Source of the DNA: Chthoniobacterales bacterium
GTDB taxonomy: Bacteria > Verrucomicrobiota > Verrucomicrobiia > Chthoniobacterales > UBA10450
Direction: 5' to 3'
Assembly: GCA_025934755.1 (NCBI GenBank)
Contig: JAICWQ010000008.1
Location: forward strand, 1 to 40,467
Length of the DNA: 40,467 nt
Positions 17,885 to 35,030 of this stretch are shown here, piece by piece. Under the pieces are notes generated by a model that was not told the DNA's origin, did no database searches, and was given only the letters and a program-made list of their open reading frames with translations. The first letter of the stretch is position 1, and the number at the start of each line of letters is the position of its first letter. The translations under genes were made by a program, and so were the position numbers.

Positions 17885-18540
17885 GCCGACGCTTTGCCTT
17901 CGATTATCTGTGATATATCGCCAAACACCGCATCTCGGTCGCGGTTGCCATCAATCTTTCGCAAAATCGACATCTTCCCGTAGTAATCAGCCAGCGGTTG
18001 CGTCTTGCTGTTGTATTCACGCAAACGCTGTTGCAGCACCCCTACATTATCGTCGCTTCGCCGCTCCAGACGGCCTTCGCAATACGGACAGATTGGCCGA
18101 TTTGCGAACTGCGCGCTGCCGACACTCGTGGTGAAACCGCAAGTGCGGCATTGCAATCGTCCTGAAATCCTCGAACGGACAGTTTCTTCGGAAACATCCA
18201 GCCAAATCGCGGCGTCGATCGACGTTTGCAAACTTTTAAGGATCGACCCAAGGCTTTCTGCTTGCGGAAGCGTTCGCGGGAAACCATCAAATACGAAACC
18301 GTATCCGCCGTGAAGATGCAACCAATCCTCGATCAACTTCACAATCGTTTTGTCCGGGACCAAATCGCCGCGCTGCAACATTTCGTCGGTTTCCAAGCCA
18401 AGGGGCGTTCCGAGATCTTTCTCACGCCGCAAGATCGCTCCGGGCGATGTGACCGGAATCCCGAAGTGCCGGGTGATCATTTCCGCCTGAGTTCCTTTTC
18501 CGGAACCCGGAGCACCAAGTAAAACGAGTCGTCGCTTCAC
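17881..18540 (-). CDS. adk: Adenylate kinase with zinc-binding lid
   Basis: Adk interconverts ATP, AMP and ADP. From GTG at 18540 the product is 219 residues: P-loop GAPGSGKG (9-16), the AMP-site DGFPRT (85-90), and a LID domain with four Cys (131, 134, 151, 154; CRTC and CPYC) that would hold zinc, as in Bacillus-type enzymes. The frame extends upstream to 18603, but that lies within secY. GTG at 18540 overlaps the secY stop as GTGA and gives the proper N-terminus MKRRLVLLGAPGSGKGTQ, so it is preferred. Confidence 0.96.
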   Translation of the reverse strand: MKRRLVLLGAPGSGKGTQAEMITRHFGIPVTSPGAILRREKDLGTPLGLETDEMLQRGDLVPDKTIVKLIEDWLHLHGGYGFVFDGFPRTLPQAESLGSILKSLQTSIDAAIWLDVSEETVRSRISGRLQCRTCGFTTSVGSAQFANRPICPYCEGRLERRSDDNVGVLQQRLREYNSKTQPLADYYGKMSILRKIDGNRDRDAVFGDISQIIEGKASA

Positions 18541-20045
18541 TTCGACGCCAAAAACGCGGCCACGCCGCCGATCACGATGATGGCGATGCCGACATAAAGC
18601 CACATCAGTGTCCGCTGCGCTGCAGCCTCACCCCGAACGTAAGCCGACCGACCGCTACATCCGCCCCGCACGCGACCTTTACGCAAGAACCCGTCGTAAT
18701 GCCGCTGGATCAAGTGCGTTTCCACCTGGCGCATCGTGTCGAGAATGACCCCGACGATGATGAGCAAACTGGTGCCGCCAAAAAATTGCGCCGTCACCGT
18801 GGGCACGTGCAATCCCTGACTCAACAAACTCGGCAACACTGCGATCAAGGTCAGAAAAATCGCGCCCGCAAAAGTCAGCCGGGTCATTGTAAAATCAAGA
18901 AACTCCGCGGTCGGCTTGCCGGGACGCACTCCTGGAATGTAGCCGCCATACTTTTTCAGGTCGTCCGCGATCTGCGATGGCTGAAATTGAGTCGCGACCC
19001 AGAAATAACTGAAGAAGAATATCATCGCCGCCAAAACCACGTAATGCAGCCAGCCAGTCGACAACATCTCCGAAATCTGCCTGGCCGTCGGACTGCTTGG
19101 GAAGGCCCAGCTCACGATTTGATTTGGGAACAATAATAATGCCCAGGCAAAGATAATCGGCATCACCCCGGGATAATTGACCTTCAACGGCATGTACTGA
19201 GTGTTACCGCCGTATTGTTTCCGGCCAACGACGCGTTTCGCGTATTGCACTGTGATTTTTCGGACCGCCTGGGTAATCGCAATTACGCTGGCGATGACCA
19301 AAAACAAAAACGCCACCATCAATACAAGGATCGCGGGATTGACCTGGCTGGCCCCGGTTTGCGATGACGGAACGAAAGTTTTCCAAGCCTGCGCCAATGC
19401 AGCGGGTAAACGCGCGACAATGCCGATGGTAATAATCAGCGATATGCCATTGCCGATTCCCCGCTCGGTGATTTGATCGCCCAGCCACATCAACATCAGT
19501 GTGCCAGTGGTCAGCGAAATCACCGTTACTACCCGAAAGACCCATCCCGGATCGTCGACCAGCGGAATCCCTAGCCGCTGAATCGTCTCCGAAATTCCCG
19601 GCAACGCGACGCGGTACGCTTCCGGGTGTTGAAAGGAAATCGCGAGCAGATAGCCCTGGAAAATGCAGAGACCGAGGGTCATGAACCGCGTGTATTGCAT
19701 GATCTTCTGGCGGCCTCCGTCTTCGCGGGCCAGCCTTCCGAGTTGAGGAATCACCGCTGACAGCAGCTGCATCATGATCGACGCGCTGATGTAAGGCATA
19801 ATCCCGAGAGAAAAGATCGCGCAGTTCTCCAGCGCGCCGCCACTGAATAAATTCAGGAGCGCGGCCAGGTTTCCGCCAGCTTTGTCGCTAAGTGCGGTTC
19901 GAAACCATTCCTGCAACACCGCCTGGTTGACTCCCGGCGTCGTTATCGCTGCGCCAAGTCGCACAATCACGACGACGGCGAGGGTAAAGAGAATCCGGCG
20001 TCGTAGCTCCGGGATCTTAAGGGTGTTGAGAAAGGCCGAAACCAT
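18537..20045 (-). CDS. secY: Preprotein translocase subunit SecY
   Basis: SecY is the protein-conducting channel of the Sec translocon. The 502-residue protein has ten membrane segments. Recognisable parts are the N-terminal KIPELRRRILFTLAVVVIVRLGA, the plug region LNLFSGGALENCAIFSLGIMPYISASIMMQLL, GDQITERGIGNGISLIIT, and the cytoplasmic loop RKITVQYAKR. It is about 60 residues longer than E. coli SecY, mainly in the first periplasmic loops and the C-terminal arm. It follows rplO after nine bases. Downstream adk starts on its stop codon. Confidence 0.97.
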   Translation of the reverse strand: MVSAFLNTLKIPELRRRILFTLAVVVIVRLGAAITTPGVNQAVLQEWFRTALSDKAGGNLAALLNLFSGGALENCAIFSLGIMPYISASIMMQLLSAVIPQLGRLAREDGGRQKIMQYTRFMTLGLCIFQGYLLAISFQHPEAYRVALPGISETIQRLGIPLVDDPGWVFRVVTVISLTTGTLMLMWLGDQITERGIGNGISLIITIGIVARLPAALAQAWKTFVPSSQTGASQVNPAILVLMVAFLFLVIASVIAITQAVRKITVQYAKRVVGRKQYGGNTQYMPLKVNYPGVMPIIFAWALLLFPNQIVSWAFPSSPTARQISEMLSTGWLHYVVLAAMIFFFSYFWVATQFQPSQIADDLKKYGGYIPGVRPGKPTAEFLDFTMTRLTFAGAIFLTLIAVLPSLLSQGLHVPTVTAQFFGGTSLLIIVGVILDTMRQVETHLIQRHYDGFLRKGRVRGGCSGRSAYVRGEAAAQRTLMWLYVGIAIIVIGGVAAFLASK

Positions 20046-20054
20046 TTCCGAAAA

Positions 20055-20621
20055 TTATTTCCGGGAAGTTTTTTTCTTCGCTTTTGAAGTCGATTTTTTC
20101 TTCGGCTTCGCTTCTTCGGTCTGTGCCTCTTGATTTACCTCATCGGCAGCGGCCACCGGTTTCTCCGCGCTGCGATCCCGCATCGTAATTGTACCGCCGG
20201 CCTTTTCAATTTTCGTCCTGGCCGATTCACTGACCCTGTCGGCCTCAATTTTCAGGGCGTGCTTCAATTCGCCATCACCCAAAATCTTGATGCCGGCGAC
20301 ATCGCCGCGAACCAGCTTTGATTCGCGAAGCAATTGCTCGTTCACCACCGTGCCAGCTTTGAAATCGTTAAGGTCGGTTAAGTTAACGACCGCGTACTGT
20401 CGATGAAAGGCCGCGTTATTAAATCCACGTTTCGGCAACCGCCGAATCAGCGGCATTTGTCCGCCTTCGAACCCCAGACGCAGGCTGCCGCCCGAGCGCG
20501 CCTTCTGGCCTTTGTGACCTTTGCCACTGGTCTTGCCGTGACCCGAGCTCTCACCGCAACCGAGCCGCTTCACTCGATGACGGGCACCGGGACGCGGACG
20601 TAAATTGTGTAACCGCATCAT
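20055..20621 (-). CDS. rplO: 50S ribosomal protein L15 with C-terminal tail
   Basis: L15 is a late-assembly 50S protein. Residues 1-145 are standard ([20 protein letters not shown] after an extra Met, [37 protein letters not shown]). Residues of about 146-188 are a Glu/Ala then Lys/Ser-rich tail ending [15 protein letters not shown] that E. coli L15 (144 residues) lacks. The ATG overlaps the rpsE stop by four bases. rpmD (L30), which normally lies between rpsE and rplO, is missing. Confidence 0.96.
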
Positions 20622-21178
20622 GATTGTGCCGCGGCCACTTTTCCGTCGCCGCCGCCCTTGATTCCGCGGACTTTGAAAATCTCATCTTTCCGGCGCAACG
20701 ATTTGAGCGCGGCGATCGTCGCCTTGACCACGTTCGCGTGATTGCTTGAACCCAGCGACTTCGCGAGGACATCGCGAATGCCTGCCGCTTCGACTACGGC
20801 TCGCACGCCGCCGCCTGCAATAACGCCGGTCCCCGGAGAGGCGGGCCGCAACAAAACGCGACCGCCGCCGAATTCGCCGATTGTTTCATGCGGAATCGTA
20901 TTCTCGTGGAGTGAAACCTTCTCCATCGACTTCTTCGCGGCTTCCGACGCCTTTCGAATCGCTTCCGAAACTTCGTTCGCTTTTCCGAATCCGACGCCGA
21001 CCGAACCATCGTGATCGCCTGCAACGATCAATGCGCTAAAACTGAAACGCCGGCCGCCTTTCACAACTTTCGCGCACCGATTGATGAACACGACCTTCTC
21101 GGTCGTGTCGCCTTTTTGCGCAGGCGTTCGGTCCTGGTTACGTGAGTCTTGTCGTCCGCGTTGTCCTGGTGCTGCCAT
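20618..21178 (-). CDS. rpsE: 30S ribosomal protein S5
   Basis: S5 lies at the mRNA entry and supports decoding accuracy. The 186-residue product has the S5 double-stranded-RNA-binding domain ([44 protein letters not shown]) and the C-terminal domain ([39 protein letters not shown]). The first 26 residues are a Gln/Arg-rich extension. It lies four bases after rplR and overlaps rplO by four bases. Confidence 0.97.
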
Positions 21179-21182
21179 GAAA

Positions 21183-21548
21183 TTAAAACTTTAGTCCCCC
21201 TTCACGCGCCGCGTCCGCGAGCGCTTTCACTTTGCCTTGATATTGAAAACCGCCGCGATCGAACACGACGTTCTCAATTTTTTTTCCGCGAGCGCGCTCT
21301 GCGATAGTTTTGCCGATCACTTCCGCGCTGGCGCGATTGGCGGCTGCTTTATTTTTTCCAAGCACGGATTTTTCTGCTGTCGACGCCGCAATCAATGTCT
21401 TACCCGCGTCATCGTCGATGACCTGCGCGTAAACATGTTTCCCTGAAAAGTAGATCGACAATCGCGGACGCGCCGCCGTTCCGGAGACTTTCTTCCGGAT
21501 TCGCCGGTGCAAACGCTGGCGAGCTGCTTTTCGATTAAACGTCGCCAT
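21183..21548 (-). CDS. rplR: 50S ribosomal protein L18
   Basis: L18 binds 5S rRNA in the central protuberance. The 121-residue product has a basic N-terminus ([18 protein letters not shown]), [20 protein letters not shown] and the terminal [28 protein letters not shown]. Normal length and no extension. It lies five bases downstream of rplF. Confidence 0.97.
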
Positions 21549-21553
21549 AAAAA

Positions 21554-22093
21554 TTATTGGACGGTCTTGCCTTCCTTGCGGCGAATTTGTTCGCCCGCGT
21601 AACGCACTCCTTTGCCCTTGTATGGCTCGGGCGGATAGTATCGCCGAATGTCGGCAGCAACCTGTCCGACCATTTTCTTGTCCGGACCCTGGATCGATAC
21701 CTTTGTGTTATCGGTGACGATGATTTTGATGTCTTTGGGAATCTGAAACACAATCGGGTGCGAAAATCCGAGACTGAGATTCAAATTCTGCCCTTGGACT
21801 GCCGCTTTAAAGCCGACGCCCTCGATCTCCAGGTTCTTGGTAAATCCTTCACTCACTCCGACAATCATGTTGTGCACGAGAGCGCGCGAAAGACCGTGTA
21901 GCGCTTTCACGCTCCGAGTTTCGGCTTCGCGCGCCACCGAAACGTGATTGTCCTTCAGGCTGGCTTTGATTTGACGAGGCAACTTCCAAGTCAGTTTACC
22001 TTTTGGACCTTCGACTGAAACAGCGCCGTCCTCAGCGATGTTGACTTTGACTTTGTCAGGAATGTCGACCGGCTTATTTCCAATTCGCGACAT
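21554..22093 (-). CDS. rplF: 50S ribosomal protein L6
   Basis: L6 lies near the sarcin-ricin loop and the GTPase centre. The 179-residue product has the two alpha/beta repeats of L6, beginning [17 protein letters not shown] and carrying [10 protein letters not shown] and the C-terminal [23 protein letters not shown]. Normal length. It follows rpsH after four bases. Confidence 0.97.
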
Positions 22094-22097
22094 AAAA

Positions 22098-22496
22098 TTA
22101 CCAGACGTAAGCGAGCAATTCGCCGCCCACTTTTTGTTTTTTCGCTTCCCGGCCCGACATCACGCCGCGTGAGGTCGACAAAATTGCCGTGCCCATTCCG
22201 CCAAGCACTCGCGGAATCTCGTCCGCTCCGACGTACCGTCGCAACCCGGGCCGGCTCACCCGTTTCAAACCGGTGATCGCGCAGGTCTGATCGACCAGTT
22301 TGTTCGTAATCTTGATCCGCGGATGGGCCGCTTTGGTATCGACTTCGTAATCGCTGATGTAGCCTTCGCTCTTTAAAATCCGGACCACTTCGGCTTTGAG
22401 CTTCGAGTATGGGATGTAGAGCTCCATCTTTTGCGCGCGCGCGCCATTGCGCACCCGAGCGAGCAAATCTGCAATTGGATCTGTAACGGTACTCAT
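22098..22496 (-). CDS. rpsH: 30S ribosomal protein S8
   Basis: S8 binds helix 21 of 16S rRNA and, in enterobacteria, represses the spc operon. The 132-residue product reads TDPIADLLARVRNGARAQ, LKSEGYISDYEVD and ends in ILSTSRGVMSGREAKKQKVGGELLAYVW. It follows rplE directly (five bases); the rpsN gene for S14 that normally separates them is absent. Confidence 0.97.
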   Translation of the reverse strand: MSTVTDPIADLLARVRNGARAQKMELYIPYSKLKAEVVRILKSEGYISDYEVDTKAAHPRIKITNKLVDQTCAITGLKRVSRPGLRRYVGADEIPRVLGGMGTAILSTSRGVMSGREAKKQKVGGELLAYVW

Positions 22497-22501
22497 GAAA
22501 T

Positions 22502-23074
22502 TCAGGCGGCTTGCGCAGCCGGTTTCTTGGCGCGGTCAGCGAACGGCATCCCCATTTCGCTCAAGAGCGACTTGGCTTCTTCGTCCGTCCGCGCGGAAGT
22601 GACGATAGTAACATCAAAACCAATGTTGCGCTTGATTTTATCGAGCTCAACTTCGGGAAAAATCGTCTGATCGGGCACGCCCAGGGTGTAGTTGCCGTTG
22701 CCGTCAAACGAACGGGGCGGCACTCCGCGAAAGTCTCGAATTCTCGGCAGGGCCGCCTTGATCAGCCGCTCCAGGAACTCGTACATCCGCTCCCCGCGCA
22801 ACGTGACCTTGGCGCCGATGAGCTGGTCCTTTCGCAATTTAAAATTTGCAATGCTCTTCTTGGAGCGCGTCTCGGCCGGCTGCTGACCGGTAATCAGGGC
22901 CAGCTCGGCCTTCGCTTCATCGAGGGCCTGTTTCACATCCGGCTGCGAGCCGATGGAGGTATTGACCACGACCTTCTCGATCCGCGGAATCTGGTGGACG
23001 TTTTTGTATTTGTGCCGTTCCCGCAAAGCGGGCACCACTCGCTCCTTGTAATGACGGTAAAATTCGTTTTCCAT
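22502..23074 (-). CDS. rplE: 50S ribosomal protein L5
   Basis: L5 binds 5S rRNA and contacts S13 in the B1b bridge. The 190-residue product begins NEFYRHYKERVVPALRE and has VEKVVVNTSIG, TGQQPAETRSKKSIANFKLRK, IRDFRGVPPRSFDGNGNYTLGV and DVTIVTSARTDEEAKSLLSEMGMPF. A short Ala/Pro-rich end (ADRAKKPAAQAA) exceeds the E. coli length of 179. Its ATG shares a base with the rplX stop. Confidence 0.97.
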   Translation of the reverse strand: MENEFYRHYKERVVPALRERHKYKNVHQIPRIEKVVVNTSIGSQPDVKQALDEAKAELALITGQQPAETRSKKSIANFKLRKDQLIGAKVTLRGERMYEFLERLIKAALPRIRDFRGVPPRSFDGNGNYTLGVPDQTIFPEVELDKIKRNIGFDVTIVTSARTDEEAKSLLSEMGMPFADRAKKPAAQAA

Positions 23075-23373
23075 TACGCCGCCTTTTTCTCAGCCTCTTT
23101 CTTTGGCTTCGTTTTGGTTTTCTTCTCCGCTTTCTTCTCGGTCTCGAGCAACTTCACGTTCGAAATGTGAATCGGGCCTTCGCGCTCCGCGATTTTGCCC
23201 TGCGGATTATCCTGCGACTTCCGCAAATGCTTCTTAATGATGCGGACGCCTTCGATCAGCACCTGCTGTTTGCGCGGGCGCACTTCCAGGATTTTTCCGG
23301 ACGAACCTTTAAAGTTCCCGCAGATCACCTCAACGTTGTCGCCTTTCTTAACGTGAAATTTAAATCGGTTCAT
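23074..23373 (-). CDS. rplX: 50S ribosomal protein L24
   Basis: L24 is an assembly initiator of the 50S subunit. The 99-residue product has the KOW motif near the N-terminus ([25 protein letters not shown]) and the [20 protein letters not shown] segment. After about residue 80 it ends in a Lys/Glu/Ala/Thr tail ([21 protein letters not shown]). It overlaps the rplN end by four bases. Confidence 0.96.
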
Positions 23374-23735
23374 AGCACCTCCGGCGCGAGCGATACGATT
23401 TTCATGAAGTTACGCTCACGCAATTCGCGGGCGACTGGTCCGAAAATACGCGTTCCTCGCGGGTTCAAATCCTTGTCGATAATCACGATGGCATTGTTGT
23501 CGAACCGCAGAAGCGAACCATCGTCGCGACGAATCGGCTGCCGTGTCCGCACCAAAACCGCTCGCACCACTTCACCTTTCTTCACCGTGCCAGTCGCGCT
23601 TGCCTCTTTTACGTTCGCAGTAATCACGTCCCCGATCCCCGCATAAAGAGTGGCCTTGCCGATCACGCCGATCATCGTCGCCATGCGCGCGCCGGTGTTG
23701 TCCGCCACCTCAAGTCTGGATCGAATTTGCACCAT
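23370..23735 (-). CDS. rplN: 50S ribosomal protein L14
   Basis: L14 forms part of the factor-binding face and bridges to 16S rRNA. The 121-residue product starts [19 protein letters not shown] and ends in [23 protein letters not shown]. It has [11 protein letters not shown] and [18 protein letters not shown]. Standard length and no tail. It follows rpsQ after three bases. Confidence 0.97.
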
Positions 23736-23738
23736 AAA

Positions 23739-24041
23739 TTACTTTTGAAGCACCTCCACCAATCGCCAGCGTTTCAATTTACTCAGCGGACGCGTCTCCA
23801 TGATCCGCACGGTGTCGCCCGTTTTCGCCTTGTTCTCTTCGTCGTGGGCGTAGAAACGGCGGATCTGTTTCACGATCTTGCCAAACTTCGGGTGCGGCAC
23901 CCGGGTCGTGGTTTGGACAACGATCGTCTTGTTCATCCGATTGGAAATCACTTCGCCCACCCGGGTTTTGCGCGCGGAACGGGTGTATTTGGCCGGCAAC
24001 GGCGGCGGTTGCGGTGGAGATTGGGTCGCTTGCTCGGGCAT
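23739..24041 (-). CDS. rpsQ: 30S ribosomal protein S17 with Pro-rich N-terminus
   Basis: S17 is a primary 16S rRNA-binding OB-fold protein. The S17 core starts at about residue 26 ([63 protein letters not shown]). The first 25 residues ([20 protein letters not shown]) are a Pro/Gln extension missing from E. coli S17. No internal start close to the core is preferable. It follows rpmC after three bases. Confidence 0.95.
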
Positions 24042-24044
24042 AAA

Positions 24045-24281
24045 TTACTTTTTCTTTTTCGCCTTCGGTTCTTCCGCCGGGATGGTCTGCGGTTGTCTCG
24101 CTCGTTGTGACAGAATGGTTTCGATCCGCGCCACGTCGCGCCGGATCAAACGCAACCGGCTGGGTTGCTCGAGCTGCCCGCTTTGCTGTTGTAAACGCAG
24201 ATGCAACCGTTCCTGGCGAAGATCGCGCCGCTTGGTCAGCAACTCCTCGTGACTCATCTCGATGATTTCTTTGATTTTCAT
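24045..24281 (-). CDS. rpmC: 50S ribosomal protein L29
   Basis: L29 lies at the polypeptide exit and helps bind trigger factor and SRP. The 78-residue protein is two helices (MKIKEIIEMSHEELLTKRRD, IRRDVARIETILSQR) and a Pro/Glu/Lys end (AEEPKAKKKK) that adds about 15 residues to the usual 63. It sits between rplP and rpsQ as in other spc/S10 clusters. Confidence 0.94.
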   Translation of the reverse strand: MKIKEIIEMSHEELLTKRRDLRQERLHLRLQQQSGQLEQPSRLRLIRRDVARIETILSQRARQPQTIPAEEPKAKKKK

Positions 24282-24286
24282 TTTGG

Positions 24287-24712
24287 CTAAGCGGCGGCCA
24301 CGTGGTGACGGCTGATAAATTTTGTGCGCACCGGTAACTTGTCGGCAGCGAGTCGCAACGATTCACGGGCGACCGATTCCGTGAGGCCGTCCAGCTCAAA
24401 CAAAATGTTGCCCGGTTTCACGGTGGCAACCCAAAACTCCGGCTGACCTTTTCCCTTGCCCATTCGCGTTTCAGGCGGGCGCGCCGTCACGGACTTATCC
24501 GGAAAAATCCGGATCCAAAGTTTGCCTTTGCGCTTCATGTTGCGAGTCAAGGCAACCCGCGCAGCTTCGATCTGTGTGTTGGTGATCCACGCTCGCTCCA
24601 AAGTTTGCAGACCGAACTCGCCAAAGTTGATCCGGAGATTGCGCGAAGCAGTCCCCTTGCGGCTTCCCCGCTGGGACTTTCGATACTTCACTCTTTTCGG
24701 CATCAACGGCAT
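24287..24712 (-). CDS. rplP: 50S ribosomal protein L16
   Basis: L16 organises the tRNA acceptor-arm region of the 50S A site. The 141-residue product has [17 protein letters not shown], the [27 protein letters not shown] helix, [26 protein letters not shown] and [32 protein letters not shown]. Standard length. It follows rpsC after eight bases. Confidence 0.97.
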
Positions 24713-24720
24713 AAAATCTC

Positions 24721-25413
24721 CTAGGCCTCGACTGTCTGCGGTGCGATTGGCGGTGGCGGAGGCGGCGGCGCCTGTTGTTCAACCGGCGCTTCTTCCTTCT
24801 TACAAATCCAGCATTTCACGCCAATCTTGCCGTAAACCGTGTTCGCTTCGGCAAATCCATAGTCGATCGGCGTGCGAAGGGTGTGGAGGGGAATTTTCCC
24901 TTCACGGTACCATTCAGATCGCGAAATTTCCGCGCCGTTTAACCGTCCCGAGCAGCGCAGCTTGATTCCTTGGGCGCCAAAGTCCATCGCGACTTGCACC
25001 GCTTTCTTCATCGCCCGGCGATACGCGATTCGGCGTTCGATCTGCAACGCGACATTCTCGGCAACAAGTTGGGCATCGAGCTCAGGAGTTTTGATTTCCT
25101 GAATGTCGATCTTGATTTGTTTGCCCTGCGCCATTTTGGAAATCTCTTCGGTCATCTTCTCGATCTCGGCGCCTTTCCGGCCAATCACGATTCCGGGACG
25201 CGCGGTGTGTATCGTCACCCGGATCGAGTTCCAGGCGCGCTCGATCACGATCTTTGCGACCGCGGCGTACTGCAGCTTCTTCTTTACGTAAGAGCGAATT
25301 TCCAGGTCGCTGTGCAAAAAGTCCGGCAGCTCCTGAGGAGAGGCGTACCAGCGCGAACGCCAGTCGCGGTTCACGCCCAGTCTGAATCCAATCGGATTAA
25401 CTTTTTGTCCCAT
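24721..25413 (-). CDS. rpsC: 30S ribosomal protein S3 with CxxC and poly-Pro tail
   Basis: S3 lies at the mRNA entry channel and contributes to mRNA unwinding. The 230-residue product begins [20 protein letters not shown], has the KH domain ([19 protein letters not shown]) and the C-terminal domain ([43 protein letters not shown]). Where most S3 proteins read GVKVWIYKGE this one reads [11 protein letters not shown], introducing a C-x2-C pair, then a tail with seven consecutive Pro. Confidence 0.96.
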
Positions 25414-25416
25414 AAA

Positions 25417-25857
25417 TTATTTCTTTGCCGCCTTCGCGGTTTTCTTCGTCTTCTTCGGTTTCCGCTCGGTCGCGGCTGACGATTTCTCTTCGGTCTCTTG
25501 GCCAGCGGTCTGCTTCTTCTCCGGCTTTTCGTCCGTCAGAACGATCCGGATGTGGCTGGTTCGTTTCAAAACCCGGGAACCACTTCCACGGGCCCGAGTC
25601 ATCATTCGTTTGAAAGTGGGACCTTCGCCGACCACAGCCTCCTTCACCACCAGTCCGTCCGCTTTCAAGTTCGCGTTGTTCTCAGCATTGGCGATCGCGC
25701 TCTTGAGCGTTTTGTTGATCAGGAACGCGGCTTTCTTCGGCGTAAAGGCGAGGATGTCCAGCGCCGCCGAAACCGGCAGACCCTGGATCTCTCGCGTGAC
25801 TTCCCGCACCTTGAATGCCGAAATCCGCGCGTACTTATATATCGATCTAACTTCCAT
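25417..25857 (-). CDS. rplV: 50S ribosomal protein L22 with basic C-terminal tail
   Basis: L22 lines the nascent-peptide exit tunnel through a long beta-hairpin. Residues 1-108 are standard (YKYARISAFKVREVTREIQG, LAFTPKKAAFLINKTLKSAIANAENN, VVGEGPTFKRMMTRARGSGSRVLKRTSHI). The rest is a Lys/Thr/Glu/Ala tail (KKTKKTAKAAKK end) beyond the usual 110 residues. The gene follows the inserted coiled-coil protein across an 86-base AT-richer repeat spacer. Confidence 0.96.
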   Translation of the reverse strand: MEVRSIYKYARISAFKVREVTREIQGLPVSAALDILAFTPKKAAFLINKTLKSAIANAENNANLKADGLVVKEAVVGEGPTFKRMMTRARGSGSRVLKRTSHIRIVLTDEKPEKKQTAGQETEEKSSAATERKPKKTKKTAKAAKK

Positions 25858-25860
25858 TAA

Positions 25861-25943
25861 CTTCGTTCCGTAATTCGAGAGTCGAGATTCGTAATTCGTC
25901 TTTCCGATTCACGATTCTCGTTTCTCGATTTTCGATTTTATCC
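25861..25943. repeat. TTCG-rich micro-repeat spacer before rplV
   Basis: Plus-strand text repeats short units such as GTAATTCG, GAGATTCG, GATTCTCG, TTTCTCGATTTTCGATTTT. It is plainly lower in GC than its neighbours and resembles the AAATCCG-type repeat of the rplW-rplB spacer. No gene is seen. Confidence 0.6.
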
Positions 25944-26780
25944 TCACTTCAAACTCACTTTCGAGGCATCGACCTGCAGCCGATCCCCCACTTTAATCTT
26001 TTCCTTCCCAGAATCCTCAATCACTGCGCCGCAAATCCGCTGGCGCACATCCACCACCCGCAATGTCGCGATCTTTTGTTCCCCGCGCATCACTCGCAGC
26101 GGCATTCCAATCTTCACGCCGTGCTGTTCGCCAATGTTTGCGACCACGAAAGACCATTCGTCCTTCACGCTCACCACGCTGGCGTCCATCAAACTTACCC
26201 GGCTGGACGCCTGCCCACCAGACCCATCGCGAACTCGGGTCGATCTTCCTACCAGCTCACTGGTTTTGCGCAATTGCATTTCCACGTCCGCTCGCGCCTG
26301 GGCGTCGCCGCCTTGGACCGTTTTCAAATATCGCAAAAGCGCTTCGTTCAAACCGAGCAGTTGGTCGCGCAGGTCGTCCCGCTCTTTTTGGGCGAGCCGC
26401 AGATCGCTCACGGCGGCGAGCAACCGTTGCTCAAGTTTCGCGCGATCCTTGCCCGCTGATGCCAGCCCCAACGCTTCCATTCGCGATTCCAACTCGGCGA
26501 ACTTGCGCCGGAAGACTTCAGCCTCCGCGTTCGACTCCGCCAGGCTCATGGTCAACGTCTTGAGCGACTCCTGCTGAACCGACAATTGCTTGCGCAACTC
26601 TTCGTTCTGCCGAACCAGCGACTCCGCGGTCACCTTCGTTTCCGCGTCTTCAATTTTGGATTCTGTCAAAGAACTATTCTCTGCTGCAAGCAGCAGAGAA
26701 GTTGAGAGCAGGTAGTTGAGAGTTGAGAGCCGCAATATCGCAGCTCGTCTTCTCCCAATCCGATCTCTCTCAACACTCAA
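25944..26780 (-). CDS. Secreted coiled-coil protein inserted in the S10 operon
   Basis: A 278-residue frame lies between rpsS and rplV, where normally nothing intervenes. An Arg-rich stretch and a hydrophobic core (LNYLLSTSLLLAAENSS) look like a signal peptide cleaved near residue 33. Residues of about 45-170 are heptad-rich coiled coil (LVRQNEELRKQLSVQQESLKTL, EAEVFRRKFAELESRMEALG, LRLAQKERDDLRDQLLGLNEALLRYL). Residues of about 195-278 look like a compact beta domain (VVANIGEQHGVKIGMPLRVMRGE, ATLRVVDVRQRICGAVIE, IKVGDRLQVDASKVSLK). The start is uncertain: the frame opens with TTG at 26780, without Shine-Dalgarno, inside a dispersed repeat; a TTG about 45 bases later is another choice. A periplasmic, envelope-associated role is inferred. 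No family recognised. Confidence 0.75.
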   Translation of the reverse strand: MSVERDRIGRRRAAILRLSTLNYLLSTSLLLAAENSSLTESKIEDAETKVTAESLVRQNEELRKQLSVQQESLKTLTMSLAESNAEAEVFRRKFAELESRMEALGLASAGKDRAKLEQRLLAAVSDLRLAQKERDDLRDQLLGLNEALLRYLKTVQGGDAQARADVEMQLRKTSELVGRSTRVRDGSGGQASSRVSLMDASVVSVKDEWSFVVANIGEQHGVKIGMPLRVMRGEQKIATLRVVDVRQRICGAVIEDSGKEKIKVGDRLQVDASKVSLK

Positions 26781-26794
26781 CTAAAAACTCTCAA
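26690..26794. repeat. CTCTCAACT-type dispersed repeat at the start of the coiled-coil gene
   Basis: The plus strand carries GTTGAGAG/GAGAGTTGAGAG units at 26698-26728 and CTCAACACTCAACTAAAAACTCTCAAC units at 26769-26794, in opposite orientation, so the block is an imperfect inverted repeat. Minus-strand copies CTCTCAAC encode part of the putative signal peptide (LSTLNYLLSTS). The same unit recurs in tgt and near secDF. Confidence 0.65.
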
Positions 26795-27073
26795 CTATTT
26801 CGCCACCTTCGCCGTGTGCGAACCGTGTTTCTTAAAGATTCGCGTGGCCGAAAACTCGCCGAGTTTATGTCCAACCATGTTCTCGGTGATGAAAACGGAA
26901 TTGAAAATCTTTCCGTTGTGCACCAAAAACGTGTGGCCGACAAAATCCGGCGTCACCATCGAGCGGCGCGACCAGGTCTTGATCGCCTTTTTCGAGCCCG
27001 AGGCGTTCATCTTGTCGATCTTCTCGAGAAGATGCGATTCGACGAAGGGTCCTTTCTTTAGTGATCTAGCCAT
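26795..27073 (-). CDS. rpsS: 30S ribosomal protein S19
   Basis: S19 pairs with S13 in the 30S head. From ATG at 27073 the product is 92 residues, exactly the family length: [45 protein letters not shown] and [17 protein letters not shown]. The open frame continues upstream to 27175, but that stretch lies inside rplB and is not S19. rplB ends five bases upstream. Confidence 0.97.
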
Positions 27074-27078
27074 AAAAA

Positions 27079-27927
27079 TCAAACTTTCTTCTTGCTGCGG
27101 CGCCGTTCCAGAATAAACCGGTCGCTCGGTTTCCGTTTGGACCGCGTCTTGAATCCTTTCGCGAGCTGTCCCCATGGGCTGACCGGGTGATGACGCCCGC
27201 CGCCGCCTTTAGATTTGCCCTGACCGCCGCCCATTGGATGGTCGATCGGGTTCATAACCATTCCGCGCACGTGCGGACGGCGCCCCTGCCATCGGGTGCG
27301 GCCGGCTTTCCCGCTGGCCACGTTCATGTGATCAACGTTTCCGACCTGACCGATCGTGGCGAAGCAATTCTCGTGGATCCGGCGCACTTCGCCGGAAGGC
27401 ATTTTCACCAGCGCATAACCGCCTTCGAGGTTGTTTAAAATCGCTTGCTGACCGGCACTGCGCGCCACCTGTCCGCCACGTCCCGGACTGAGTTCGATGT
27501 TGTGAATGCTTGTTCCAAGCGGGATCGAGCGAAGGGGCAGCGAATTTCCCAGCTCCGGCGGCGCGTCACTTCCGGCGGTGACTTTCGCGCCCGCCTTAAG
27601 CCCATTCGGCGCCAGGATGTAACTCAGCTCTCCGTCGGTGTACTTAATAAGAGCGATTCGCGCTGAGCGGTTCGGATCGTATTCGATCCCGACTACTTCC
27701 GCGGCGACGCCATGTTTACGCCGTTTGAAATCGACTTTGCGATAACGCTGTTTGTGACCGCCGCCGATATGCCGTGAAGTCAGCCGGCCATGATTATTGC
27801 GGCCGCCAGACTTCCTTTTCGGTTCCAGCAAACTGCGTTGCGGACGCCACTTGGTAATCTCGTCGAAGGCCGGCGTTTGCTTGAAACGCTGGATCGGCGT
27901 GAGCGGGCGATAATTTTTGAGCGCCAT
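27079..27927 (-). CDS. rplB: 50S ribosomal protein L2
   Basis: L2 supports subunit association and the peptidyl-transferase centre. The 282-residue product has the L2 N- and C-terminal domains: [40 protein letters not shown], and the C-terminal [48 protein letters not shown] with the conserved His. Normal length. It is separated from rplW by a 137-base repeat spacer, the largest gap in the supercluster. Confidence 0.97.
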
Positions 27928-28064
27928 AACGTTTTACAAATTCGAAATCCGAAATCCGAAATCCGAAACGGACCGGCCGCTTCCCGGCATCTTGTTTGAA
28001 TTTTGGATTTTGTTCATTCGGGTTTGTTTCGATTTTCGATATTCGTACTTGGGATTTCCAGTTC
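27928..28064. repeat. AAATCCG tandem micro-repeat in the rplW-rplB spacer
   Basis: TTCGAAATCCGAAATCCGAA continues through 27941-27968 as about three copies of a seven-base unit. It is followed by degraded TTTTGGATTTTG, TTCATTCGGG, CGATTTTCGATATTCG text, which reads as opposite-strand variants. The 137-base spacer has no gene or promoter that I would call. The unit recurs inside tgt. Confidence 0.65.
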
Positions 28065-28346
28065 TCAGACGAGTTCGATTTTCTCCCCTTCGGCTAAAGT
28101 CACGATTGCTTTCTTCCAGTGGGCCCGGCGTCCAAGCGGTCCGCGGACGCGCTTCTGTTTTCCGGCGTAATTGCAGGTGTTCACGTCGATCACTTTCTTT
28201 TGGAACAACCGCTGCACCGCGTCCTTGATCTGGGTCTTGTTCGCCCGCGGACTGACTCGAAAAACGTATTTGTTTTGTTTTTCGCTCAACAGCGTCGATT
28301 TCTCAGTCAGTGACGCGGTTTCAATAATTTCGTGCGGCTCGCTCAT
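28065..28346 (-). CDS. rplW: 50S ribosomal protein L23
   Basis: L23 sits at the exit tunnel and docks trigger factor and SRP. The 93-residue product contains EKSTLLSEKQNKYVFRVSPRANKTQIKDAVQRLF and the extended loop VNTCNYAGKQKRVRGPLGRRAHWKKAIVTLAEGEKIE. Length is usual. It overlaps the rplD end by four bases. Confidence 0.96.
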   Translation of the reverse strand: MSEPHEIIETASLTEKSTLLSEKQNKYVFRVSPRANKTQIKDAVQRLFQKKVIDVNTCNYAGKQKRVRGPLGRRAHWKKAIVTLAEGEKIELV

Positions 28347-28951
28347 TTTAATCTTTCCGCCAGTTTTTCGAGCGCTTTTGGTGTCACCAAAATTTTCTGA
28401 AACGCCAGCAGCTGCTCGGTGTTCACGTCGGAAGCAGTCGCCAGCGCGACCGGTTTGACGTTACGAGCCGACTGGTAGGTCTTGTCATCGAACGAATCTG
28501 AAACGATCAGCACTTTCTTTGCGTCGGTCTGCTTGCGGACCAGTTCGACAAACGACTTCGTTTTGATTTCGGAAACGGCGAATTTGTCGATGGTCAAAAC
28601 GTCGCCGGCCTTGATTCGCTCGCTCAAAGCTTTTTGGAGGGCGAGACGCCGCACGGATTTTGAAACTTTCTTGGAATAATCGCGCGGATGCGGTCCGAAT
28701 ACGACGCCGCCGCCACGCCAAACCGGCGACGAAGCATAACCGGCTCGGGCGCGGCCGGTTCCTTTCTGCCGCCACGGTTTTGCCCCGGACAAGTCGACCG
28801 TCGCTTTTGTTTTCACGCTGGCCGTTCCGGAACGCCGTGCTGCTCGCATCGCGGTCACGACGTCGTGGACAGCTTGCGAACCACGGCCATCCTCGATGAC
28901 CTCGATCTTCGCTTCTTTCGCGGCGGCTTTGGTTAAAACTTTCGCGCTCAT
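28343..28951 (-). CDS. rplD: 50S ribosomal protein L4
   Basis: L4 lines the exit tunnel and in E. coli represses its own operon. The 202-residue product has the tunnel loop GAKPWRQKGTGRARAGYASSPVWRGGGVVFGPHPRDYSKKV and the globular part (ALQKALSERIKAGDVLTID, KVLIVSDS, ALATASDVNTEQLLAFQKILVTPKALEKL). Overlaps of four bases with rplC and rplW point to coupled translation. Confidence 0.97.
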   Translation of the reverse strand: MSAKVLTKAAAKEAKIEVIEDGRGSQAVHDVVTAMRAARRSGTASVKTKATVDLSGAKPWRQKGTGRARAGYASSPVWRGGGVVFGPHPRDYSKKVSKSVRRLALQKALSERIKAGDVLTIDKFAVSEIKTKSFVELVRKQTDAKKVLIVSDSFDDKTYQSARNVKPVALATASDVNTEQLLAFQKILVTPKALEKLAERLK

Positions 28952-29706
28952 TTCTTATGCTCGGCCGCCTTCTTCTCTGCCGCCTTTTCTGCCATTATCT
29001 CCCCCGCCTTCTTCGGCTTTTTAGAATGTGCTGCCGCGTCTGCCTTTGCGTGCTCCTGGTGCGCGGCGAGGAGCGCGCCTGGGTTTTTAATCGCGGGGCG
29101 GACGACCACGTAGCTGCCATTGCAACCGGGGACCGCGCCGCTCACCAAAATTATCTTCTCGGTTTCGCGGACCTGTATGACTCGCAGATTCTGAATGGTT
29201 ACGCGCTCGTCACCGAGATGACCGGGCATGCCCATGTTCTTCCAAATCCGGCCGGGCGTCGAACGATTGCCGATTGCACCATTGCGACGATGGGTTTTTG
29301 AACCGTGGGCCGCGCCCTGTCCGTGGAAATTGTGCTTCTTCATCACGCCTTGGAAGCCCTTACCTTTCGAGCGGCCGATGACATCAACGAAGTCGCCAGG
29401 CTGGAACTGGGTCACGGCGAGATTTACCTCGCCCTCCGGCAAATTCGCTTCTAATCGAAACTCGCGGACGAATTTTTGCGGCCCGACGTTGGCTTTCTTG
29501 AAATTGCCAAGCTCCGCTTTAGTTACGCGCGATTCCTTTTGGGCAGCGAACCCAACTTGCACCGCAGAATACCCGTCGTTCTCGTCCGTCAGGCGGCGAA
29601 GAAGAACGTTATCGCCGGCCGCGATCACGGTCACCGGATGCAGCCGGCCATTGGCGTCGTAGACGCTGGTCATGCCGATTTTTTGTCCTAGTAAACCGAT
29701 GCTCAT
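28948..29706 (-). CDS. rplC: 50S ribosomal protein L3 with C-terminal tail
   Basis: L3 reaches the peptidyl-transferase centre. Residues 1-208 are standard (SIGLLGQKIGMTSVYDANGR, FQPGDFVDVIGRSKGKGFQGVMKKHNFHGQGAAHGSKTHRRNGAIGNRSTPGRIWKNMGMPGHLG). The final 44 residues or so are Ala/Lys/Glu/His-rich (AGEIMAEKAAEKKAAEHKK end) and have no counterpart in the 209-residue E. coli protein. It begins 29 bases after rpsJ. Confidence 0.96.
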   Translation of the reverse strand: MSIGLLGQKIGMTSVYDANGRLHPVTVIAAGDNVLLRRLTDENDGYSAVQVGFAAQKESRVTKAELGNFKKANVGPQKFVREFRLEANLPEGEVNLAVTQFQPGDFVDVIGRSKGKGFQGVMKKHNFHGQGAAHGSKTHRRNGAIGNRSTPGRIWKNMGMPGHLGDERVTIQNLRVIQVRETEKIILVSGAVPGCNGSYVVVRPAIKNPGALLAAHQEHAKADAAAHSKKPKKAGEIMAEKAAEKKAAEHKK

Positions 29707-29735
29707 GTTGACGACGTGGGAAAATTCTCAAGCAG

Positions 29736-30047
29736 CTAAATTTTGATCGTGATATCAACGCCTGCGGGCAGGTTCAGCTTCTTCAATTCGTCCACCGTTT
29801 TCGCGGTCGGCTCGATAATATCGAGCAACCGTTTGTGCGTGCGGATTTCAAATTGTTCCATCGACTTTTTGTCGACGTGCGGAGAGCGATTCACCGTGAA
29901 TTTTTCAATCAACGTCGGCAGCGGAATTGGACCGGCCACCCGCGCGCCCGTGCGTTTGGCGGTCTCAACAATCTCGACCGCAGACTGATCGAGCATTCGA
30001 TGATCGAACGCCTTCAGCCGAATCCGAATTTTTTGTCCATCCGCCAT
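29736..30047 (-). CDS. rpsJ: 30S ribosomal protein S10
   Basis: S10 is a 30S head protein and NusE of the antitermination complex. The 103-residue product has [54 protein letters not shown] and [18 protein letters not shown]. Its ATG shares its A with the fusA stop (TAATG), directly joining the str and S10 parts; the tuf gene that often lies here is absent. Confidence 0.97.
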
Positions 30048-32227
30048 TATTTCTTCTCCTTTTGATCGAGAATTGCGGCAACGAGGTTCGCCGGAACCGG
30101 GTCAAAGTGTGATGGCTCCATCGAGTAGCTGGACCGGCCTTTCGACAACGAGCGGATCGCGGTTGCGTATCCGAAAAGTTCGGCAAGCGGGACGAGCGCG
30201 TGAACGATCGCGAGATTGCCGCGCGATTCGATGCTTTGAATGCTTCCGCGGCGCCGACTCAAGTCTCCGCAAATGTCACCCTGATATTCTTCCGGCGTAA
30301 TATTTTCGACCTTCATGATCGGCTCGAGCAGGATCGGTTTCGCCGCGCGGAAGCCGTCTTTCATCGCGAAAATCGCAGCCATCTTGAACGCGAGCTCGTT
30401 TGAATCGACTTCGTGGAAACTTCCGAAAACAATATCGCACTCAATATCGACAACGGGATAGCCGCCCAGAACGCCGTCCAGGACCGCTTCTTCGATACCT
30501 TTCTTGACGGCTGGAATGTATTCGCGCGGAATAATTCCCCCGACGATTTTATTTTCGACCACGTGGCCTTTGCCGCGCTCGCCCGGTCGAAGATCGACTT
30601 CGACGTGGCCGTATTGACCGCGGCCGCCGGATTGTTTGATCAACTTGCCGACGCCGTGCGCGTTCGTCGTGATGGTTTCGCGATAAGCGATCTGCGGTTT
30701 GCCCGCGTTCGCGTCGACTTTGAATTCGCGGAACATTCGGTCGCGAATAATTTCCAAGTGAAGCTCGCCCATGCCGGCGATGATGGTCTGGCCGGTGTCT
30801 TCGTGAGTGAAAACGCGGAAAGTCGGATCCTCTTCGGCGAGACGTTGCAGCGCAACGCCCATTTTTTCCTGGTCGAGCTTCGTTTTCGGCTCGATCGCCA
30901 TGGAAATAACTGGATCAGGAAAAGACGGCGGCTCGAGCAGGATCGGATGATCTTCGTCACACAGGGTGTCGCCAGTAGTGATGTTTTTGATTCCGACGAT
31001 CGCGGCAATGTCGCCCGAATAACAGGTCTCGATGTCTTCGCGTTTGTCGGCCTGGATTTGAATCAAACGAGAAATGCGCTCGCGTTTGTTCGTTCGGGGA
31101 TTGTAAACCGTGTCGCCCTTACTCAGCGTGCCGGAATAAACGCGGAAGAAAACGAGTTTCCCGACAAACGGGTCGCTCCACAATTTGAACGCAATCGAAC
31201 AGAAAGTCCCGTTGTCATCCGTCACCGCTTCCATCGGCTCGCCCGTGTCGGGGTTTTGACCTTTGGCCGGCGGAATATCGAGGGGGCTCGGCAGGTAATC
31301 GACGACTGCGTCTACCAGGTATTGAACGCCGATGTTCTTCAATGCCGACCCGCCGATGACCGGCACGAATTTGTTAGCAATCGTTTGCCGCCGAATCGCC
31401 GCCTTCAAAAGCTGCGGCGTCACCGGTTTTTCTTCCAGAACAACCTCGGCGATCTCGTCATCGATATTTGAAATCTGCTCCACCAGCTCTTTGTGAGCTT
31501 TATCGACTGCGGCGGCGTGTTCTGCCGGAACCTCGGTGACTTCGTAGGTCGATCCAAGCTGGTCGCTCTCTGAATAAATGATCGCCTTCTTATTAATAAC
31601 GTCGAGCTGCCCGCGCAGTTGATCTTCGCGGCCCAGCGGCAACAGCACCGGCCACGCGTTGGCGCCGAGCTTTTTGTGAATGCTGTCGACCGACATCTCG
31701 AAATCGGCGCCGACGCGGTCCATTTTATTAATGAAGGCAAGCTTTGGGACGTTGTATTTCGTCGCCTGCCGCCAAACCGTTTCGGATTGCGGTTGGACGC
31801 CGGCGACGCCGTCGAACACCGCGATCGCGCCGTCGAGCACGCGCAGCGAACGCTCGACTTCCGCGGTGAAATCAACGTGACCCGGCGTGTCGATGATGTT
31901 GATCCGCTGCTTGATCCCTTCGAAAATCTTGTAGACGCCTTCTTCTTTTTTCTGCGACCAGCTGCAGGTCGTCGCGGCGGAGGTGATGGTGATTCCGCGC
32001 TCACGCTCCTGTTCCATCCAGTCCGTGACAGTGGTGCCTTCGTGCACTTCGCCCATCTTGTGGATCATGCCGGTGTAAAACAGCACTCGTTCGGTGATCG
32101 TGGTCTTGCCGGCATCAATGTGAGCCGCGATTCCGATGTTTCGCGTCCGCTCGAGCGGGAATTTCCGGTCGGGGGAATTTGGCCCTTTCGCTGCGGCTGG
32201 TTTCTTTTCGGCGGTAGCGGTGGCCAT
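30047..32227 (-). CDS. fusA: Elongation factor G
   Basis: EF-G is the translocation GTPase. The 726-residue protein has an extra N-terminal 25 residues ([20 protein letters not shown]), then the G domain with [47 protein letters not shown] and [10 protein letters not shown]. Domains II-V follow, with [38 protein letters not shown] and the C-terminal [12 protein letters not shown]. Length slightly exceeds the usual 700 because of the head and a short insert. It follows rpsG after five bases. Confidence 0.97.
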
Positions 32228-32232
32228 AAAAT

Positions 32233-32706
32233 TTACCAGCGGAAATGAGCAAAGGCGCGGTTCGCCTGCGCCATTTTGTGGGTGTCTTCGCGTTTCTTGA
32301 TTGCGTTGCCTTGACCGGAGGCCGCGTCCTTGATCTCAGCGGCAAGCGCTTCGGCCATCGGCATGCCTTTGCGGGTGTCGGCGTACATTACGATCCAGCG
32401 CGTTGCTAATGAGATTTGACGGGCCGGCCCGACTTCCATCGGCACCTGATAAGTAGCGCCGCCAACTCGACGCGATTTGACCTCCAGCCGCGGACGAACG
32501 TTCTCGATCGCTTTGTTTACGACCTCGAGGGGATCGACCGAATCCGATCCTTCGCGCGATTTGTCAATCGCAGTATAGACAATGCGCTCGGCGAGCGATT
32601 TCTTGCCCCGTTTCATCACCGTGCTGATGAGGCGGGCAACTGCCGGGCTCCCGTAGCGGGAGTCGACGCGCTCTTCCTTTTTGTAAACTCTCTTCCGTCG
32701 CGACAT
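32233..32706 (-). CDS. rpsG: 30S ribosomal protein S7
   Basis: S7 organises the 30S head near the E site. The 157-residue product begins [20 protein letters not shown] and has [58 protein letters not shown] and [38 protein letters not shown]. Standard length. It lies 21 bases after rpsL. Confidence 0.97.
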
Positions 32707-32727
32707 TGTCGATCTTCTGTTTCAAAT

Positions 32728-33156
32728 TTACTTCTTCTCCGCGGCAGGCGCGGCCTTGCCCGCGCCGCCTCCACCAGCCGCGCCACCTTTCGGGCGCTTC
32801 GCTCCATACTTGGAACGACTGCGTCGGCGCCCATCGACGCCGAGCGAGTCGAGCGTGCCCCGCACAATGTGATAGCGCACGCCCGGCAAATCTTTCACTC
32901 GTCCCCCGCGCACGAGCACGATCGAGTGCTCCTGCAAATTGTGTCCCTCGCCCGGAATGTAGGCAATCACTTCCTGGCCATTCGTCAACCGCACTTTTGC
33001 GACTTTGCGCAAAGCGGAATTTGGCTTCTTTGGAGTGCGGGTCATCACCTGAACGCATACGCCGCGACGCTGAGGACAATTGGTCAGGGCCGGTGACTTC
33101 GATTTCACCGACATCTTCCGTCGTCCTTTCCGAATTAACTGGTTGATCGTGGGCAT
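32728..33156 (-). CDS. rpsL: 30S ribosomal protein S12 with short Gly/Ala tail
   Basis: S12 lies at the decoding site. From ATG at 33156 the product is 142 residues: [86 protein letters not shown]. The Lys of KKPNS, where streptomycin-resistance changes map, is the wild-type residue. After KYGAKRPK comes an 18-residue Gly/Ala-rich tail. The longer upstream frame overlaps the promoter and tgt and is rejected. It heads the supercluster. Confidence 0.97.
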
Positions 33157-33170
33157 TTTTACCAAAGCGC

Positions 33171-33211
33171 CGCCCGAATGGGGTAAAATCCGGGCGACAA
33201 AAAACCCGCCC
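33171..33211 (-). promoter_or_regulatory. Two mutually exclusive hairpins in the rpsL leader
   Basis: In the leader RNA, the segment at 33196-33191 (CGCCCG) can pair with the earlier GGGCG (33211-33207) or with the later CGGGCG (33176-33171), but not both. The second stem ends 15 bases before the ATG. This could be an autoregulatory switch; that reading is inference from base pairing alone. Confidence 0.4.
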
Positions 33212-33255
33212 AAACGCGTTAACACACTGTCACGCGCCTGATGCGGTGAGCGGCG

Positions 33256-33284
33256 ACTATAGAGGAGAAAATTGCGCTCCGCAA
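33256..33284 (-). promoter_or_regulatory. Promoter of the str-S10-spc-alpha supercluster
   Basis: On the minus strand TTGCGG (33284-33279) lies 17 bases before TATAGT (33261-33256), a good sigma-70 pair. Transcription would begin at about 33249, giving a leader of roughly 93 bases before rpsL. Confidence 0.6.
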
Positions 33285-33340
33285 AGAATATTTTGCGTCC
33301 GAATTTGTTTTGGGCGGCGATTGCGCGGAATCTCTGCCGA

Positions 33341-34507
33341 ATGCAAAAAGCGTTCGAACTTTTAGCGCAGGACCAGCAATCGAAGGCGCGGCATGGCCGG
33401 CTGGTGACTGCGCACGGCGCGATCGAAACCCCGGCGTTCATGCCGGTCGGAACGCAAGGGTCGGTGAAAGGAGTCAGCCCGCGCGAACTGCGCGAACTCA
33501 CCACCCAGATCATTCTCGGAAACACTTACCATTTGTTTGTTCGACCCGGACTCGAAGCGATTAAACATTTTGGCGGACTGCACAAATTCATGAACTGGGA
33601 CGGGCCGATCCTGACCGACAGCGGCGGTTACCAGATTTTTTCGCTGGCAAAGTTGCGCAAGATTTCCGAGGACGGCGTGCAGTTTCAAAATCATGTCGAC
33701 GGCACGCCCGCGTTTATCTCGCCGGAGATCGCGATGGAAATCCAGGCAGCGCTCGGCAGCGATATCGTGATGGTCCTGGACGAATGTCCCCCGTGGCCGT
33801 GTGAATACGATTACGCGGCGAAGAGTCTGGAAATGACCGTCCGTTGGGCGAAGCGATGCAAGGCGGCTGCCAAATCCGAATTCCGAAATCCGAAATCCGA
33901 AACAAACGCTCAACTCTCAACTATCGACTCTCAACTTCTGTTCGGTATCGTCCAAGGCGCGACCTTTGAAGAGCTGCGAAAGCAATCGGCGCAAGCGCTG
34001 GTCGAGATCGACTTTGACGGCTACGCGATTGGCGGCGTCAGTGTGGGCGAGCCGGAGGAAGAAATGTTTCGCGCGGTGGAATCAAGCGAACCGAATTTGC
34101 CCGCGAACAAACCGCGTTACGCGATGGGTCTGGGAACGCCGCCGCAGCTTCTGGAAATGATCGCGCGCGGGGTCGACATGTTCGATTGCGTTTTGCCAAC
34201 ACGGCTGGCGCGCAACGGAACGGCATTCAGTTCGACCGGCACCTTGAATTTAAAAAACGCCGAGTTCGCGATGGACAAACGGCCGATCGAAGAGAATTGC
34301 CGGTGTTCGACCTGCCGCGAGTTCGCCCGTGGTTATATCCGGCACTTGATCAAGGCCGAAGAGATTTTGGGCCTGCGGCTGATCACCGTCCACAATTTGC
34401 ATTTCTATTTAGAGCTGATGCGACAGTCCCGGGACAAGATCAAAAGCGGGACATTCGACGAGTTTCGGCGCGGATTTGTGGCCAATTACAAGCCGCGGAA
34501 TATTTAG
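33341..34507 (+). CDS. tgt: tRNA-guanine transglycosylase with repeat-derived insert
   Basis: Tgt swaps guanine for preQ1 in the wobble position of queuosine tRNAs. ATG at 33341 ([12 protein letters not shown]) gives 388 residues; a longer frame from 33272 lacks family support. Motifs: [37 protein letters not shown] with the Asp general base, [15 protein letters not shown], nucleophile Asp in [17 protein letters not shown], and zinc ligands CRCSTC plus His in [12 protein letters not shown]. Between [10 protein letters not shown] and LFGIVQG about 22 residues ([21 protein letters not shown] and L) are encoded by the dispersed micro-repeats, longer than the usual loop. Downstream yajC and secDF form the common tgt-yajC-sec neighbourhood. 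Confidence 0.95.
33872..33938 (+). repeat. Micro-repeat inserted in frame in tgt
   Basis: AAATCCGAATTCCGAAATCC and its continuation (33872-33901), followed by CTCAACTCTCAACTATCGAC and its continuation (33910-33938), join the AAATCCG unit of the rplW-rplB spacer with the CTCTCAAC unit at the start of the coiled-coil gene. The block adds a whole number of codons and has no stop in frame. Confidence 0.75.
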
Positions 34508-34942: not shown

Positions 34943-35030
34943 GTGGTTGAGACGTTGCGGAGTTGAGATGAGAATCAAAAAGCAAATCAGCGTGAACCCT
35001 CAACGTCTCAACATCTCAACATCTCAACTT
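34943..35030. repeat. Inverted CTCAACATCT-type repeat between yajC and secDF
   Basis: TTGAGACGTTG (34947-34957) has a perfect inverted copy CAACGTCTCAA (35001-35011), and GTTGAGATG pairs with CATCTCAAC nearby; the right half is about three tandem CAACATCTCAAC-like units. It leaves no room for a Shine-Dalgarno before the secDF ATG. Confidence 0.65.

Follow-up and report, generated by a model that had tools for sequence, protein, structure and literature searches.

The interval between the ribosomal protein genes rpsS and rplV in this S10 operon is occupied by a conserved gene, here called X, that encodes a predicted exported envelope protein and carries within its reading frame a nucleotide element matching the boxA of rRNA operons in the same phylum. 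We favor, with moderate confidence, the explanation that the complex of NusB and S10 acts through this intragenic boxA on the S10 operon transcript. In the window (the whole 40,467-nucleotide stretch that was analyzed), the minus-strand gene string runs rpsL, rpsG, fusA, rpsJ, rplC, rplD, rplW, rplB, rpsS, X, rplV, rpsC, rplP and on to secY, and it includes the following features.

29736..30047, minus strand: rpsJ, encoding uS10 (NusE) according to the ORF translation; upstream of X in the same gene string
26795..27070, minus strand: rpsS (uS19), upstream neighbor of X, with its stop at 26795
25944..26780, minus strand: gene X, predicted exported coiled-coil and FlgT-C-like barrel protein of the rpsS-rplV interval; maximal ORF of 278 codons with a TTG start
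26676..26735, minus strand: putative signal-peptide coding stretch LRLSTLNYLLSTSLLLAAEN, partly of CTCTCAACT-type repeats, with hydrophobic maximum LNYLLSTSLLLA and a cleavage site placed by eye
26666..26674, minus strand, which is the sense strand of the operon: intragenic boxA-like element GTTCTTTGA, covering codons 36-38 (AGT TCT TTG, Ser-Ser-Leu) and the first base of codon 39
26229..26627, minus strand: coiled-coil region, residues 52-184, with AlphaFold2 helices 52-103, 107-154 and 160-184
25965..26189, minus strand: C-terminal beta-barrel, residues 198-272, resembling the FlgT C-terminal domain by VIA-align
25417..25857, minus strand: rplV (uL22), downstream neighbor of X, with its start at 25857

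The initial annotation had proposed a reading frame between rpsS and rplV on the same strand, and the 278-codon minus-strand frame lies there, with uS19 upstream and uL22 downstream. It had also allowed that X might be a chance insertion without homologues outside this strain. That clearly fails, as 53 of 58 related genomes contain an X homologue. A chance insertion or an assembly artifact of this strain, for which the only argument is the repetitive, low-complexity sequence at either end of X in this genome, is already refuted by the presence of X in many independently assembled genomes and by strong purifying selection (dN/dS about 0.1-0.2; dN 0.07-0.3, dS 0.8-2.4), with X distances that track those of uS3 (r 0.92) and uL2 (0.85). 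The likelier start of X is codon 16, at 26735: the window has TTG at this codon, the closest relative ATG and another relative GTG. Translation from that position would give about 263 amino acids with a conventional signal peptide. The conserved TTG of the boxA site was also considered as the true start codon and was rejected, since many relatives have clear ATG-started signal peptides in frame ahead of it.

Gene order around X recurs far beyond the window. Among strong, complete matches, all 30 family loci and all 14 order loci place X between uS19 and uL22, with the three genes on one strand, and the order rpsS-X-rplV was found in 77 of 80 loci of a named collection (Chthoniobacterales, Spartobacteria, Ca. 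Udaeobacter and unclassified Verrucomicrobia, partly overlapping the 58 relatives); the remaining 3 show no uS19 because the contig ends there. Because the sequences compared are related, such counts overstate independence. In a profile search, 99 of 240 Verrucomicrobiota genomes matched X, some of the matches being paralogues elsewhere, and uL22 adjoined the match in 37 of the 40 profile-matching regions examined outside Chthoniobacterales. X homologues fill the same slot in several families and classes of the phylum.

A second set comprised 40 regions from genomes with no strong profile match in the rpsS-rplV slot; per-sequence E-values for this set refer to a database of one sequence. Eleven of these regions hold a short X in the slot, consisting of signal and barrel (112-127 amino acids). 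In another 14, an X-like gene immediately precedes rplV, with X-rplV-rpsC in order and uS19 not found within about 2.6 kb upstream (L197-L200, L203, L204, L206-L211, L213 and L214); in those other-family genomes the S10 operon is probably split, with X as the first gene of the distal part. The last 15 show no recognizable X, and the gap measures 9-313 nt where uS19 is nearby. By profile-profile comparison with hhalign, the short form (E 2.6e-11), the forms directly upstream of rplV without nearby uS19 (E 4.7e-18) and the forms from other classes (E 1.3e-22) all align with X, which argues that the long, short, rplV-adjacent and other-class forms are one family. Genera such as Akkermansia probably have X in the slot too. 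We conclude from the distribution that X was probably ancestral in the S10 operon of the phylum and was shortened or lost several times. The description of X as an insertion holds in that a real gene is embedded in the S10 operon, but it is incomplete, as X is an old feature of the phylum and not a peculiarity of one genome. Rather than an uninterrupted pair, rpsS and rplV flank an exported uncharacterized protein that belongs there in much of Verrucomicrobiota.

One way in which such an arrangement could be maintained, and the idea behind the initial annotation, is that X is an abundant envelope protein, required at levels that scale with ribosomes and growth rate, and that its gene has no regulatory role. 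The conservation of an exported coiled-coil and barrel protein beside rplV across the phylum fits this idea, as does the contact between the X stop and the rplV start (0-1 nt) in many relatives, including most family members; in the window, an 86-nt spacer, made up mostly of a 7-nt repeat, separates X from rplV. Against it, X has been lost in several lineages, where the rpsS-rplV gap is mostly short, and the synonymous constraint described below is left unexplained. We regard dosage as doubtful, although a real contender; it is compatible with action of NusB-S10 through boxA and does not exclude it.

The predicted architecture of the X protein agrees with what had been proposed from the window alone. 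The AlphaFold2 model (pLDDT 79.8) contains a long coiled coil, made of the three helices listed above, and a C-terminal domain of six strands, as expected from the earlier proposals of a long coiled coil and a C-terminal beta-like domain. The putative N-terminal signal was likewise confirmed as a hydrophobic segment, which is found in nearly all X forms; that of the window protein ranks among the weaker (KD over 12 residues 1.46). Most homologues combine the hydrophobic N terminus, the coiled coil and an FlgT-C-like barrel, some families have leader and barrel only, and the barrel fold is predicted in long and short forms alike. Comparison of X with Pfam and NCBIfam gave no family above the cutoff, and a sequence search of solved structures gave weak matches only, mostly to coiled coils.

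Structural comparison was more specific. The X barrel superposes on the FlgT C-terminal domain (PF16538) with Z scores of 10.8-11.2 and rmsd values of 1.7-1.9 Å over 73-75 residues (VIA-align: 8z5n, Z 11.2; 3w1e, Z 10.8, rmsd 1.9 over 75 amino acids), whereas X has a coiled coil in place of the other domains of FlgT. X itself falls below the PF16538 cutoff (15.6 versus 27 bits), and the family matches 11 of 40 X relatives at an E value of ≤0.1 (best E, 2.8e-4). The N-terminal barrels of F1-ATPase superpose on the X barrel nearly as well, which argues that the fold is generic. A flagellar role was rejected, as no FHIPEP (FlhA) match was found in the seven genomes searched, the window genome included. 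X also shares with MreC the order of an N-terminal membrane signal, a coiled coil and a beta domain, and MreC structure 2j5u ranked eighth in Foldseek; X differs in having one barrel and a mostly cleavable signal, and no MreC model was among its Pfam matches at an E value of ≤1. CT421.2, a signature protein common to the PVC phyla, differs from X in length at 53-80 amino acids, as judged from its published description (PMC3444138).

The architecture suggests that X most likely serves the cell envelope in a structural or tethering capacity, for example as a stalk or tether. X would be exported by the Sec pathway, with a cleaved signal peptide or, in some classes, an N-terminal anchor; the coiled coil would serve as stalk or oligomerizer and the FlgT-C-like barrel as head. 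The main texts of PMC12283558 and PMC4960237 contain no usable entry on X essentiality or on X in the proteome. A distant paralogue with a membrane segment, a coiled coil and a barrel was found in the window genome (contig C250; L230:822-1634) and in related genomes (L231:1632-2540). It carries the barrel motif VVLNLGxRxGVE and stands near sugar-nucleotide genes, and other genomes have tandem pairs of X-paralogue genes.

The initial annotation missed a nucleotide-level element inside X. In the Chthoniobacterales codon alignment, codon 36 was AGT in 31 of 34 sequences (background, 15%), codon 37 was TCT in 38 of 38 (11%) and codon 38 was TTG in 37 of 39 (31%); these three adjacent codons are the strongest departures from codon usage in the alignment, and the codons around them drift freely. 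As a control, 131 conserved Ser, Leu and Arg columns of uL2, uS19, X, uL22, uS3 and uL16 were inspected, and a single codon was used throughout only at TCT37 and TTG38 of X. Moreover, the 5′ part of X contains G.TCTTTG at a density of 0.24-0.28 per locus per 250 nt, roughly 25 times that found elsewhere on the operon sense strand over 4 kb on either side (about 0.01). As points against a boxA, TCTTTG is often followed in family f1 by T (from a TCA codon) rather than A, and several relatives have GTTCTTTC or GTTCTTTT at this position. Outside Chthoniobacterales, G.TCTTTGA was found within 330 nt after uS19 in 7 of 47 loci (shuffles: mean 0.30, maximum 3), always in the X frame and directly after the membrane segment. 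The seven sites come from five families (f18, f35, f37, f55 and f62) and are not independent events, because they probably represent one inherited site.

The constraint might instead reflect a Ser-Ser-Leu motif of the protein with preferred codons, a pause in translation that serves export, or a different kind of RNA or DNA site. Ser-Leu is indeed conserved at the protein level, and the site directly follows the export signal, where pausing could matter. We nevertheless consider such explanations unlikely: TTG is the commonest Leu codon and not a rare one, TCT is invariant at codon 37 despite its low share of Ser codons, neighboring codons are unconstrained, and the identical letters stand in the rRNA leaders and spacers of the phylum. 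A genome-wide DNA motif of the uptake or chi-like kind was rejected (30 sites, versus 32 for the reversed control). For TTGACA as a −35 box, no −10 element was seen by eye. Toward its 3′ end, X shows a weaker constraint on synonymous codons (window 25977-26021, codons 254-268; Ile262 ATA in 21 of 32, Ser257 TCT in 20 of 36), which is perhaps related to rplV initiation.

The identity of the element is indicated by rRNA operons of relatives, on which the comparison rests, as no 16S gene was found in the window genome. The 16S-23S spacers of three lineages read G[TA]TCTTTGAAAACT, and X reads G[TAC]TCTTTG; the spacer elements are GTTCTTTGAAAACT in L220 and L221 and GATCTTTGAAAACT in L217. GTTCTTTGAAAACT is the Gram-positive form of boxA. 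Two rRNA leaders from the same family as the window genome (L219 and L222) contain TCTTTGA twice. The rRNA boxA and the X element thus share the core G[TA]TCTTTG(A), in both cases on the transcribed strand, whereas X lacks the AAAACT tail of the spacer boxA, and the X element lies in frame inside a protein-coding gene of a ribosomal protein operon and not in an rRNA leader. A conserved GAATTGTGCG was also seen 10-15 nt before TTCTTTGA, or a variant of it, in 16S leaders of several lineages (L220, L221, L223 and L225), and it is possibly another antitermination element.

boxA is the site bound by NusB-S10 (PMC10250234, PMC10931766), a complex of NusB with the rpsJ product (PMC10931766, PMC5725501). 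NusB and Rho are encoded, and the S10 ORF lies upstream of X in the same gene string. We conclude that the assignment of codons 36-38 of X as a boxA and candidate NusB-S10 site is well supported at the level of sequence comparison.

The element and the gene are separable. In f18 and f37, boxA is present in both the rRNA spacer and X, and in f14 it is present in neither. No canonical boxA was found in X of f14 or f17, of the short-X families or of the lineages without nearby uS19, and the reverse holds in f15, where the rRNA boxA is present and X is absent. The RNA element and the envelope role of the protein may share one gene without depending on each other, as several lineages keep one without the other.

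In the explanation that we favor, RNA polymerase passing X would present boxA on the nascent mRNA to NusB-S10. NusB-S10, together with NusG and NusA, would then modify the elongation complex, so that little transcription of the distal operon, from rplV to secY and beyond, would be lost to Rho-dependent termination. Expression of the distal operon would thereby respond to free S10, and the two halves of the operon would be linked. As a counterpoint, the element is 8-9 nt long and, in an mRNA that is being translated, has to compete with ribosomes.

The main rival to antitermination is repression, as at suhB. Here the boxA would be real, but S10 (NusE) with NusB would bind its own operon mRNA in X, block translating ribosomes and promote termination by Rho, so that the operon would control its own distal half by feedback. 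Precedent exists, in that the Nus complex represses suhB in Escherichia coli and a gene of C. koseri, and boxA also occurs near rpsJ in three gamma-proteobacterial genera (PMC5725501); S10 is moreover encoded in the operon of X itself. Those sites resemble the X element in standing on mRNA and in their tie to a Nus factor gene. They were, however, sought within 50 bp upstream of start codons in gamma-proteobacteria (Baniulyte et al. 2017, PMC5725501), and the suhB boxA lies in a 5′ untranslated region near the start codon, whereas the X boxA is translated, lies about 20-36 codons into an ORF in mid-operon and recurs across classes of another phylum. RNA folding around the X boxA favors neither outcome: no unusual structure and no clear signal of a conserved hairpin or of accessibility was seen, and mean unpaired probability was 0.35 versus 0.38 for control 9-mers. 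Rfam gave no family in 18000-34000 even at an E value of ≤1. We judge repression improbable and continue to prefer antitermination.

A broader claim, to which we give slightly less than an even chance, is that X is a dual-code gene at the scale of the phylum, in which the ancestral coding sequence included boxA and NusB-S10 controls the travel of polymerase into the second half of the ribosomal protein cluster. If so, a single locus would couple protein export, rRNA-type antitermination and the supply of ribosomal proteins. Antitermination of rRNA and synthesis of ribosomal proteins are usually viewed as separate controls. A boxA within the S10 operon, conserved at the single-nucleotide level across classes, would be an immediate candidate for connecting them in cis, with S10 as messenger. 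The boxA inside X offers a specific RNA-level candidate mechanism for the proposed connection between X and ribosome synthesis. In the open-access literature searched, no report was found of a boxA inside the coding sequence of a ribosomal protein operon.

Short tandem repeats of 7 or 8 nt were also seen in the window at 25905-25937, 27938-27968, 33872-33902, 33905-33936 and 34999-35028 (units CGATTCT, AAATCCG, AACTCTC and CTCAACAT), mostly within or beside intergenic gaps. X appears frameshifted, split or stop-containing in a few draft genomes (L028, L040 and contig C215 of G013), through sequencing error or decay. Repeats similar to those of the gaps also encode some of the X signal peptide (STLNYLLSTSLLLA), and relatives have repeat-encoded N termini such as FRFSIFDFRL.
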